Of a stretch of 64,000 bases of DNA, positions 1,316 to 46,519 are shown piece after piece. Origin of the DNA: an uncultured Paenibacillaceae bacterium (GTDB lineage Bacteria > Bacillota > Bacilli > Paenibacillales > K13); assembly GCA_913056365.1 (NCBI GenBank), contig CAJXLT010000002.1, forward strand, positions 372,001 to 436,000, written 5' to 3'. The position numbers and the translations under genes were made by a program. The first letter of the stretch is position 1. Each line of letters opens with the position of its first letter. The notes below the pieces were generated by a model that had not been told where the DNA came from, did not search any database, and was given only the letters and a program-made list of their open reading frames with translations.

Positions 1316-3580
1316 CTATGCACCTGGAACCGGCGCCATATCAGGCAGTTCTCCCCATTCTTCCTCACTTCCTCCGTTCTCCTCTTCATCTAGTTGGTCC
1401 CCGAGGTCTTCCTCCTCAGTCTGACCCTCCTCAGCTGACTGACCAGGGGCTTGAAGCTTCAGATGCACCATTCGTTCGCCATTCTGATTCGTCACGGATT
1501 GACTGACTACGTAGCCTTGTCCTTCAATCTCTGCATGATATTCCAATAATGCGGCTGTCTGCAGGGCATCCCGCAATGACTTCCCAGTTAAATCGGGCAA
1601 ATGCGTATCCTGAGGCTCGGAGGTCAGAAGCAGAATGGACTCCCCTGGAATTGCTGCATCACCTGCTTTGGGGAACTGCCTAAGCACAGTGTCGCCTGTG
1701 CCTATCCATTCAACCTCCATAGATTGGCGCAGCAGCTCATTCTCCGCTGCCAGTCTCGTATAACTGACGACATCCGGCACAGTTGTGTCTACGTCGGCAA
1801 GGGTAATCTTCTCAGTCGGCTCCTTGGCTGCAACACCCAAATAACGCAAGCTCTTAGCCATAATTTCCTTGAACAGCGGCGCAACTACGCCACTGCCTTC
1901 GCTATAATCTGCAACCTTCGGCTCGTCTACAATGACGATAAGTGCAATCTTCGGATCTTCCACAGGCCCGAATCCGGCAAAAGAGACGACATACTGATTA
2001 TTCTCTGAATATTTCCCATCAATAACCTTTTGTGCTGTTCCTGTTTTGCCTGCAATTCGGAAACCCTCAATATATGCTCTGCGCCCTGTTCCTATCTCCT
2101 GATCGGAGATGACACTTTCCAAGTACTCCGCCACCTGTGCAGCAGTTTCTGGTTGCAGCACTTGCCGAACTACTTCCGGTTCTGTGCGAGACAGCACTTC
2201 GTTCGTCTCAGGCTCCAGCACTTCATTCACAAGATGGGGCTTCATCAGCTTACCGCCATTGGCAATCGCAGAGATGGCCGCTACTTGCTGCATGGCTGTC
2301 ACGGAAACACGCCCTTGTCCGAACGTTGCGGTCGCAACCTCTGACGGGATATTGCCGCGAATACTGATCTGACCTGCTTGTTCTCCGGGCAGCTCGATTC
2401 CGGTTTGGTCACCAAATCCGAAATCGTGAATATACTGATTCAGCTTCTCATAGCCGAGTTGCTCATAGCCCAGCTTAACGAAGGCTACGTTACTTGAACG
2501 CTTCAAGCCTTCCATATACGTAATCTCATCCCAACCGCTCCAGTTGTGATCGTGAATCGTCGCCCCAGGCACACGAATCGATCCTGACTCAAAAGTGGCA
2601 TTCGGATTAAATATTCCTTCTTCTACAGCAGCGGAAAGGGTGACAATCTTAAAGGTCGATCCCGGCTCATAAATACCAGATACTGCTGTGTTGAAGAAGT
2701 CGCTCTGACTATCAAACTCCCAATATGTATTCGGATTGAAGGTTGGCATATTAGCCATGCCAAGCACATCCATCGTCATCGGATCTACTGCTATGGCGGT
2801 GATTGCCTCCGGCTGATATTGCTCCCACGTAGCCTGCATTGCTTGTTCCATATACACTTGAATATTCTCATCGATCGTCAACCGCAATGACTTGCCGTCA
2901 ATCGCAGGCTCATATAACACCTTCGAATTCGGCAATTCATACCCTAACCGATCTCGATCATAGCGAATCATACCGGGAACACCGTTAAGGATTGCATCGT
3001 ACTCATATTCCAGCCCTGATATAGCAACACCGTCCTTGCGCCAATACCCGATAACATGCGCTGCAAGCTCATCTGCCGGATAGTAGCGCTTCTGTTCCTC
3101 TATGAGATAAACTCCCTCCAGCTCTTTCTCCTTAATCCCTTCGCGAATGATATCAGCAGTATCTCCGTCAATCTTCCAGCCTTCGCTGCGAATCTCTCTC
3201 TGCTTGTAATATTCGCCTTCACCATTCTTCTCTGTAACTTTCTCCATCAACTTCAGCCGGCCGCTCGGATTATCCAGACCTAATGCCGGTGCCAGTACAT
3301 TGACAACGGCATCTTCCATATCCAATTGATGGACAAGCGCTGGATTCACAGCAACTGTATACGCGGGCCCATCCTGTGCGAGCACCTTGCCGTTACGATC
3401 CATAATAGCTCCTCGTTGCGGGTTCAATTCACGTGAGCTTGACCACACATCCTTGGCTCCATCAAGCAGTACGGTAGCTTCTACCACTTGCAAGTAATAC
3501 ATTCGGAACATCAAGGCAACAAAAAGGAGGGTGAATCCCCCTCCTATTAACAAGGAGCGCAGTGCAACTTTCTTCTTCAT
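1316..3580 (-). CDS. pbpB: Division transpeptidase PBP2B with PASTA domains
   Basis: Class B penicillin-binding protein that cross-links septal peptidoglycan in the divisome (FtsI/PBP2B role). The start chosen is ATG at 3580, giving MKKKVALR, because AGGTGGGAG sits just upstream; a GTG four codons earlier overlaps that site. About 754 residues: membrane anchor at roughly 9-27, dimerisation domain, transpeptidase domain with STFK (Ser308), SSN (362-364) and KTG (512-514), then two PASTA repeats from about 600 to 715, and a strongly acidic tail rich in Glu and Asp. It lies 15 bases after ftsL and before spoVD in the classical mraZ-rsmH-ftsL-pbpB-spoVD order. The acidic extension is the only unusual element. 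Confidence 0.95.
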   Translation of the reverse strand: MKKKVALRSLLIGGGFTLLFVALMFRMYYLQVVEATVLLDGAKDVWSSSRELNPQRGAIMDRNGKVLAQDGPAYTVAVNPALVHQLDMEDAVVNVLAPALGLDNPSGRLKLMEKVTEKNGEGEYYKQREIRSEGWKIDGDTADIIREGIKEKELEGVYLIEEQKRYYPADELAAHVIGYWRKDGVAISGLEYEYDAILNGVPGMIRYDRDRLGYELPNSKVLYEPAIDGKSLRLTIDENIQVYMEQAMQATWEQYQPEAITAIAVDPMTMDVLGMANMPTFNPNTYWEFDSQSDFFNTAVSGIYEPGSTFKIVTLSAAVEEGIFNPNATFESGSIRVPGATIHDHNWSGWDEITYMEGLKRSSNVAFVKLGYEQLGYEKLNQYIHDFGFGDQTGIELPGEQAGQISIRGNIPSEVATATFGQGRVSVTAMQQVAAISAIANGGKLMKPHLVNEVLEPETNEVLSRTEPEVVRQVLQPETAAQVAEYLESVISDQEIGTGRRAYIEGFRIAGKTGTAQKVIDGKYSENNQYVVSFAGFGPVEDPKIALIVIVDEPKVADYSEGSGVVAPLFKEIMAKSLRYLGVAAKEPTEKITLADVDTTVPDVVSYTRLAAENELLRQSMEVEWIGTGDTVLRQFPKAGDAAIPGESILLLTSEPQDTHLPDLTGKSLRDALQTAALLEYHAEIEGQGYVVSQSVTNQNGERMVHLKLQAPGQSAEEGQTEEEDLGDQLDEEENGGSEEEWGELPDMAPVPGA

Positions 3581-44687: not shown

Positions 44688-45587
44688 TCACTCCAGTGTA
44701 AAACCCAATTCGTTCAACACATTGTCACGATTGCGCCAGTCCTTCTTCACCTTAACCCACAACTCAAGGAAAATCTTAGAACCAAGCAGCCGCTCCATAT
44801 CTTCGCGCGCTTGCCTGCCGATTTCCTTCAACAGTGCGCCTTGCTTGCCAATAATAATGCCTTTCTGCGAATCGCGTTCCACCATAATGACGGCGCCAAT
44901 GGATACGACACCGTTATGCTGACGTTCCATGCTTTCAATATAGACGGCAATGGAATGCGGTATCTCCTCACGAGTTTTATGCAGAATCTTCTCCCGAATC
45001 ATCTCTGCGCATACGAATTGCTCCGGATGGTCCGTAATCTGATCCGAAGGATAATACTGCGGTCCTTCCGGCAATACTTGTTGAATCAACGCAAGCAATG
45101 TGCGGACATTATTGCCGTGCAGCGCAGAGATCGGCACAACTTCCCTGAACGGGTGCAGATCCTTATAAGTTTGAATAAGCGGCAGCAGATCTTCAGGGTG
45201 AACGAGATCAATTTTGTTAATGACAAGAAAAACAGGTGTCCGTATACCAGACAATCGCTCAATAATGTAACGGTCTCCTGCCCCGATTCCTGCTGCAGCA
45301 TCGATGACGAACAATACCGCGTCTACCTCTTGCAGCGCATTCTCTGCACTCATCATCATTCGTTGTCCGAGCTTGGATTTCGGCTTATGGATGCCAGGGG
45401 TATCGAGAAATACGATCTGGGACTCCTCTGTCGAGTACACGCCCTGAATCTTGTTGCGCGTAGTTTGAGGCTTATCCGACATAATCGCAATTTTCTGCCC
45501 GATCACTTCATTCATAAATGTCGATTTGCCAACATTCGGTCTTCCAATAATCGTGACGAAGCCTGACTTGAAAGCTTGGTCGGTCAT
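44688..45587 (-). CDS. era: Ribosome-biogenesis GTPase Era
   Basis: Essential GTPase that binds 16S rRNA and supports 30S assembly. About 299 residues: G1 GRPNVGKS, G2 with QTTRNKI, G3 [11 protein letters not shown]4 NKID and the C-terminal KH domain (about 200-299, with [23 protein letters not shown]). ATG at 45587 follows GGAGG and overlaps the cdd stop codon (ATGA); the frame continues 37 codons upstream without support. Confidence 0.97.
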
Positions 45588-46006
45588 AGCTGTTCCTCCT
45601 TCGTCAATCTGAATGCACCAGGCAGCAGATCGCTGACGGTTGTCAGCCGCTGCTTGCCGCTTGCATTCCCTAATATAACCGGCATATCCGGGGGACATAG
45701 TTCAGCCATTACCTGGCGGCATGTCCCGCAAGGTGTAATAGGCTCCTCGGTGTCTCCCATGACGGCAATCGCTTGGAAATGACCAGCCTTCACACCGTCA
45801 GCAATTGCACGAAATAGAGCGGTACGCTCCGCGCAATTGGTTGGACCGTAAGCGCTGTTCTCCACATTGCAGCCGTAATGTATATGACCATGCTGATCCA
45901 GAAGCGCCGCTCCCACCCAAAAGTTCGAATAAGGCGCATAAGCGCGCTTACCCGCTTCCCGTGCGTGCTGCAGCAGTTCTTCTGCCCTTCCTTCACCAGC
46001 ATTCAT
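45584..46006 (-). CDS. cdd: Cytidine deaminase, internal in-frame start
   Basis: Zinc enzyme converting cytidine/deoxycytidine to uridine in pyrimidine salvage. The 140 residues equal a normal tetrameric CDA and contain [19 protein letters not shown] (catalytic Glu, first Cys ligand) and [10 protein letters not shown] (two further Cys ligands). The ATG at 46006 has AGGAAGGGG about eight bases upstream, just as an independent gene would. It overlaps era by four bases at its end. Confidence 0.88.
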
Positions 46007-46519
46007 CTTATATTCCCCTTCCTGTTGTTTCCTAGTATATCCTGTCTGGTAGGCTTGAGCAAACCTCACATAAATCACTGCGCCTATGAGTAACACGAGA
46101 ACTCCGAGTAACGCAGCTTGACTGGCAATTGTCCCACTCATGTAGGCGTCATCCATTATTCGATCAAGCAATACAGACCCAAATACAATGATACACACGG
46201 CAACGGCAAATACCGCAGCCGCTAGAACAGCTGCAGCAGCTGTATCCTTGGCTGCTTTCGCCAATGGGTGCCGCTTCGGCATAGACAGATCGACTAACTT
46301 CTCCGTTGCTGTATTCCATAGCTCCGCCGCTATCGTCATCACAATGGCCAGCAGCACCCAGAGCGACTCGAGCGGACCGATTCCAAGTACAAGCGAAAAA
46401 ACGACGGCCGCAATGGCCGCCGCAAAGTGAAAACGCATGTTGCGTTGTGTGGACAGGGCATAAGCTACGCCATGGAAAGCCCACCGAAAGCTGCGGGCAA
46501 AAGACTTGATCGTATTCAA
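45584..46519 (-). CDS. dgkA: Undecaprenol/diacylglycerol kinase joined to cytidine deaminase
   Basis: One open frame of 311 residues without a stop. Residues 1-121 are a DgkA/UndK lipid kinase with three membrane helices, [14 protein letters not shown] and HPLAKAAKD. Residues about 131-153 form an extra membrane helix, then a short basic-to-acidic linker; residues 172-311 are a complete cytidine deaminase. The start is TTG at 46519, overlapping the ybeY stop (TTGA). B. subtilis has the same two genes separately in this place. An in-frame ATG at 46006 has its own site, so the deaminase can also be made alone. Whether the long product is made is unknown. Confidence 0.85.

Follow-up and report, generated by a model that had tools for sequence, protein, structure and literature searches.

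An in-frame dgkA-cdd fusion with a retained internal cdd start in the ybeY-era region of an uncultured Paenibacillaceae bacterium

In the 64,000-nucleotide stretch of an uncultured Paenibacillaceae genome analysed here (assembly GCA_913056365.1, contig CAJXLT010000002.1, positions 372,001 to 436,000; hereafter the window), the genes for the lipid kinase DgkA and the cytidine deaminase Cdd, which we take to be separate genes in Bacillus subtilis, lie in one uninterrupted reading frame. Undecaprenol kinase is the activity expected of DgkA in Gram-positive bacteria. The locus raises the question of whether a genuine DgkA-Cdd protein is encoded and whether the cell can still make Cdd on its own. 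The gene order around the fusion is ybeY, dgkA-cdd, era, and the four-base overlaps TTGA and ATGA that join these genes (Table 1) may couple their translation throughout. The era operon of Staphylococcus aureus contains the same genes in the same order, ybeZ-ybeY-dgkA-cdd-era-recO (PMC6738653). A review of Era describes as enigmatic the persistent nearness of cdd, dagK, pdxJ and acpS to era and ybeY, and its open questions include what the constant linkage of era to recO and cdd means (PMC10582724).

The first-pass annotation, made from the window alone, had placed dgkA and cdd in a single stop-free frame, and this is borne out: one 311-codon ORF carries a DAGK_prokar domain and a full TIGR01354 deaminase. 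In Pfam, the N-terminal part matched DAGK_prokar (PF01219) over positions 2-102 of a 102-position profile (E 3e-30, 104.5 bits against a cut-off of 22.3) and residues 179-279 matched dCMP_cyt_deam_1 (E 1e-17), while in NCBIfam residues 181-306 matched the tetrameric cytidine deaminase family TIGR01354 with 142.4 bits against a cut-off of 113.65. The conserved ExxNTxxE motif of DgkA is present in all seven fusions described below, as ELWNTATE in the window protein; CAE and PCGxC, the zinc-site motifs of cytidine deaminases, occur in its second half. The predicted masses of the long DgkA-Cdd protein and of free Cdd, 33.6 and 15.1 kDa, agree with the sizes of about 34 and 15 kDa that had been anticipated.

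Table 1. Features of the dgkA-cdd locus, with positions in the window
Feature	Coordinates	Strand	Basis and details
ybeY stop / dgkA-cdd start overlap, TTGA	46516..46519	-	ORF listing, DNA
dgkA-cdd fusion ORF	45584..46519	-	311 codons, TTG start; ORF listing, Pfam domains, full length in sister species
DgkA (DAGK_prokar) domain, residues 13-113	46181..46483	-	Pfam; ELWNTATE motif; matches E. coli DgkA structures
Fourth hydrophobic segment, residues ~131-149	46073..46129	-	Kyte-Doolittle 19-residue mean 2.48
Linker, residues 150-171	46007..46072	-	Three K/R among the 20 residues that follow the fourth segment; low pLDDT
AGGAAGGGG, internal Shine-Dalgarno site of the old cdd start	46015..46023	-	Rank 1 of 22 in-frame starts, -12.0 kcal/mol
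Free Cdd frame from internal ATG (residue 172)	45584..46006	-	140 aa, 15.1 kDa predicted; ATG and Shine-Dalgarno site kept in sister species
Cytidine deaminase domain, residues ~179-305	45605..45985	-	Pfam, NCBIfam; CAE and PCGTCRQ zinc-site motifs
Fusion stop / era start overlap, ATGA	45584..45587	-	ORF listing, DNA

An AlphaFold2 model of the fusion (55 rows) had a mean pLDDT of 80 and a pTM of 0.49, with most of the deaminase domain scoring over 90 and stretches of the later DgkA helices at 57-72. The modelled deaminase domain matched B. subtilis Cdd (1jtk) with a TMt of 0.91 and 51% identity; the best 50 of 409 matches in the structure comparison were deaminases only, and the DgkA half was assigned by sequence. 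Residues 36-169 also scored 27.2 against the Pfam cut-off of 26.7 for PMP22_Claudin, a result that is probably fortuitous and reflects a four-helix membrane pattern. The whole genome contains one DAGK match and four matches to the deaminase superfamily PF00383, namely the fusion, TadA, RibD and a ComEB-like gene whose best model is ComEB, with a score under its cut-off. The fusion therefore carries the sole DgkA found and the sole Cdd among the four, and both functions look single-copy in this genome.

In G001, the sole other genome of the genus and family compared, the frame is likewise full length and free of stops, at 83% identity. Between the two species, dN/dS is 0.03 in the DgkA part (residues 1-116), 0.056 in Cdd and 0.25 in the joining stretch (residues 117-178), values that are rough since dS is near saturation (1.5 overall). 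The joining stretch also differs by an in-frame indel of three residues. The pattern is suggestive of translation and of moderate constraint across the joining stretch.

To survey the distribution of the fusion, the fused protein or a profile of six fusions served as the query in 1276 genome searches altogether, over overlapping sets: 392 genomes of the order (20 of them searched again), 398 of the phylum and 348 of the class, together with, for G603, 72 genomes of its class and 14 of its order and, for G997, 11 of its family and 15 of its order. The order, phylum and class searches listed the best matches, among which a full-length fusion should come at the top, although a fusion whose linker differs strongly could have been broken into two matches and overlooked. 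Among the matches listed, both halves occurred without a stop in seven genomes: this one (G000), G001, G603, G788, G790, G739 and G997. The fusion is thus found in both genomes of this genus, in four of the five genomes of family f117 (G603, G788, G790 and G739, with identities to G603 as low as 53%; the match in G789, the fifth, extends to a contig end) and in one of the 11 genomes of family f166, G997, the assembly of which is listed with 8% contamination. The first-pass annotation had made its claim depend on whether close relatives carry a stop at this place. Within the genus they do not, the frame being open in both genomes, but beyond this pair a DNA-level reading found no fusion in any of 113 genomes of the order: 108 have separate neighbouring genes, and five have a closed Cdd frame of 135-169 codons beside which no dgkA was found. 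Among the genomes of the order read in this way, the fusion is thus specific to the lineage of the window pair.

All loci together yielded, after filtering, 219 distinct neighbouring dgkA/cdd pairs, seven of them fused, a ratio that is not a frequency because loci were picked for high score or a large open frame. Left out were duplicates, loci lacking either gene, loci with DAGK at or below 50 bits or on the other strand, and loci whose two domains lay over 700 bases apart. The unfused neighbours share the same relative frame in 101 of 192 cases, a figure given no weight because the loci were picked partly for same-frame matches. Large open-frame values suggested further fusions; those inspected were separate genes with a stop between them, the value apparently spanning stops. 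Matches over both halves in Salinicoccus, Jeotgalicoccus and Staphylococcus canis also came from separate genes, and in the last of these (L048) a stop lies between dgkA and cdd, whereas the window has one frame with an internal start.

A FastTree phylogeny built from the DAGK and Cdd domains at 213 distinct loci placed the fusions in three separate clades, the window pair (support 1.0), the four f117 genomes (0.846) and G997, so the seven fusions represent only three independent cases. The window pair falls in a clade with 40 short-tailed DgkA proteins (support 0.91), and its smallest distances are to long-tailed ones. G997 sits within nested clades of unfused relatives (supports 0.79-0.98). 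The tree label 'tm4' was assigned from tail length alone, and the hydropathy of the G997 family was checked afterwards: among its ten unfused genomes, DgkA has one extra hydrophobic segment in seven, a short tail in two and a long tail in one. G938, which is related to G997 at 71% identity, has its dgkA stop immediately ahead of a cdd ATG in the same frame, so that losing this single stop would fuse the genes and leave the internal start untouched. The last dgkA codons of G938 and of the G997 relatives contain a purine-rich stretch.

The strength of Shine-Dalgarno sites was taken as the energy of the duplex with the anti-Shine-Dalgarno sequence and was calculated for every in-frame ATG, GTG and TTG of each fusion protein (22-36 starts). 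In all seven fusions the old cdd start has the strongest site (-11.7 to -13.1 kcal/mol), and it keeps the first rank over whole stop-to-stop frames. The top-ranked start lies 4-29 residues before the start of the Cdd profile; its codon is ATG in the window (46004-46006) and GTG in G788, G739 and G790. The search for internal starts covered a span from 45 residues before the start of the Cdd profile to 3 residues after it, set once the first sequences had been seen; the ranking is independent of that span, as it covers all in-frame starts of the protein. Among 943 internal in-frame starts of the 51 other ORFs in the window, none reached -11.7 and six reached -10, a control that applies to the window genome, the background of the f117 fusions being stronger (next-best starts -9.9 to -11.1). 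The best site near the 5' end of window ORFs has a median of -11.5, a best-of-several figure that is somewhat flattering to real starts. In the window pair the site is retained though the residues that it encodes differ (QQEGEYK / DQKGESN).

A start codon with a Shine-Dalgarno site above background is thus nested in frame within the longer gene, and the earlier suggestion of a retained ribosome site before the deaminase ATG extends to all seven fusions. The open frame, its domains and conservation, its three separate clades and the internal site can all be read directly from the sequences. A real in-frame fusion with a retained internal ribosome site leads us to expect both a tethered and a free deaminase. 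The latter is a predicted internal product of 140 residues, Cdd being typically a free, tetramer-forming protein of about 130 residues. Its start would probably be overlooked by annotation in these genomes.

The position of the deaminase relative to the membrane depends on what follows the DgkA helices. E. coli DgkA has three membrane helices, the third of which starts at the cytoplasm with Arg92 at its cytoplasmic end (PMC6408475). Accordingly, the C-terminus of DgkA should face outwards, and a deaminase attached there would sit outside the cell. The window protein does not end soon after the third helix in the manner of E. coli DgkA; a fourth hydrophobic segment and the soluble domain come after it. 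An early end is typical of DgkA and not defining: among 212 unfused pairs, DgkA lacks an extra segment in 123, carries a single one in a short tail in 13 and bears a long tail of at least 90 residues in 76. Seven of the 13 short one-segment tails fall in the family of G997, and the 13 are clustered in few lineages and hence are not 13 independent cases. DgkA tails of at least 90 residues are common in this order and in other classes, often with two to four hydrophobic segments; that of L224 matches PAP2, and that of L173 matches no Pfam family.

The hydropathy of the fourth segment exceeds the threshold of 1.6 in five of the seven fusions (2.48 in the window, 2.5 in the sister species, 3.16 in G997, 1.94 in G790 and 1.76 in G603) and is weak in two of the four f117 fusions, G788 and G739 (0.94 and 1.05). 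AlphaFold2 models a helix over residues 130-170 at moderate to low confidence, with residues 160-174 below a pLDDT of 50. By the helix-count rule, such an extra helix would keep Cdd cytoplasmic, for which hydropathy and model are suggestive but not proof. Derivation from the long DgkA type by deletion was considered as one candidate origin of this helix. A profile built from 74 long tails gave E-values of 0.36 for the window tail and 1.3 for the sister, with 0.88 for the best shuffled control; the G997 tail gave 0.021 and several unfused relatives 0.03-0.14.

We propose that dgkA and cdd, neighbours in a ybeY-dgkA-cdd-era operon, merged in frame while the old ribosome site and start of cdd stayed in place, and that the resulting gene probably has two products, a membrane-tethered DgkA-Cdd and a free Cdd. 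Ribosomes starting at the dgkA TTG would translate the whole frame into a membrane protein with the three DgkA helices, the fourth helix, the linker and a cytoplasmic Cdd. Other ribosomes would be recruited to the internal AGGAAGGGG...ATG and produce free Cdd, which could assemble into the normal tetramer by itself or together with tethered subunits. The fusion would be tolerated because the extra helix brings the C-terminus to the cytoplasmic side. The existence of both products, their places in the cell and their activity are what we infer from these features. Several observations count against this explanation: the weak fourth segment in G788 and G739, the clustering of the 13 one-segment tails, the roughness of the dN/dS values and the reduction of the seven fusions to three independent cases. 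The long tails of unfused pairs often contain several hydrophobic segments and may end on either side of the membrane. DgkA is a trimer (PMC6408475) and Cdd, by the family name of TIGR01354, is a tetramer, so that a pure fusion would have a symmetry clash.

The two products could also have arisen with no gain from joining them. The frame may be open simply from lack of selection for a stop, the fusion protein being a tolerated by-product, the working Cdd coming from the internal start and the tethering doing nothing; this account shares the two products with our proposal, differs on their meaning, and has in our judgement an even chance of being correct. Retention of the internal start in all seven fusions is what it would predict if free Cdd does the work. 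G997, the only fused member among the 11 of its family, and G938, with its in-frame stop before the ATG, indicate that the event can be recent and simple, and the linker varies in both length and sequence. Set against it are the persistence of the fusion in four of five f117 genomes, at identities down to 53% to G603, and in both species of this genus, as well as the dN/dS of 0.25 in the joining stretch, though the fourth-helix part of that stretch could be constrained for DgkA alone. Its retention in f117 suggests that the fusion has, at the least, long done no damage there. Tethering has no proven benefit, and tolerated loss of the stop accounts for the data as well as the proposal does, and better in the case of G997.

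Selection for a deaminase held at the membrane beside DgkA, where it might catch cytidine arriving through nucleoside transporters or fix the ratio of the two enzymes, appears unlikely. The three separate clades, the retention across the divergent family f117 and the fourth hydrophobic segment in five of seven fusions, which would put Cdd inside the cell, are in its favour. Fusions are nevertheless few (seven genomes), preservation of the internal start implies a need for the free form as well, and we know of no metabolic link between the activities of DgkA and Cdd. The review cited above likewise terms enigmatic the constant proximity of cdd and dagK to era and ybeY (PMC10582724). A bolder version, which we regard as rather improbable, holds that this is a repeatedly evolved two-product gene in which only a four-helix DgkA can absorb cdd, the internal start sets the ratio of tethered to free enzyme, and mixed tetramers anchor pyrimidine salvage to DgkA trimers. 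If true, this reading of helix count and set ratio would directly show that a functional link underlies the unexplained conservation of dgkA and cdd beside ybeY and era.

It is quite improbable that the internal site is a fossil and that the long protein, made alone, supplies all Cdd activity. Translation from dgkA crosses the site, and a translating ribosome could conceivably mask it; the site, however, is as strong as those of window gene starts (median best -11.5) and is kept in all seven fusions, four of them across a divergent family. Finally, a sequencing or assembly error that removed a stop or shifted the frame, which the 113 unfused genomes of the order might suggest and which the first-pass annotation had listed among possible refutations, is hardly credible, since the sister species has the same open frame at 83% identity with many synonymous differences.

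Fusion of operon neighbours has precedents. YbeY-Era fusions, already known (PMC10582724, PMC6738653), likewise join operon neighbours in some Clostridia, Selenomonadales and Thermoleophilum album; YbeY and Era both act in ribosome assembly and are reported to be linked physically and genetically (PMC10582724), unlike DgkA and Cdd. In the DAGK-PAP2 proteins (G627, L224), as in the window, a DgkA upstream of cdd has a C-terminal membrane extension, but there the added part is a PAP2-type membrane domain, whereas in the window it is a soluble nucleoside enzyme. Nested in-frame starts that yield two products from one gene are described for archaeal Cas11b (PMC11899642). Unlike Cas11b as described there, the nested product here is a complete enzyme that relatives encode in a gene of its own, and the longer product is predicted to be a membrane protein. 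No report of a DgkA-Cdd fusion was found in the literature searched. Operon-neighbour fusion and nested starts are thus known kinds of arrangement, and the DgkA-Cdd pair appears to be new.

Fused neighbouring genes are often taken as a sign that their proteins work together. A dgkA-cdd fusion found in three clades with a kept internal start offers a concrete gene with which to test the association of cdd and dagK with era and ybeY. The arrangement in G938 also illustrates how two operon neighbours can fuse with the second protein retained, the loss of one stop codon being enough. In L103 (~2217-3470), from an actinobacterial metagenome-assembled genome, the Cdd-bearing frame opens within dgkA but in a different phase, and the match to Cdd begins just behind the dgkA stop.
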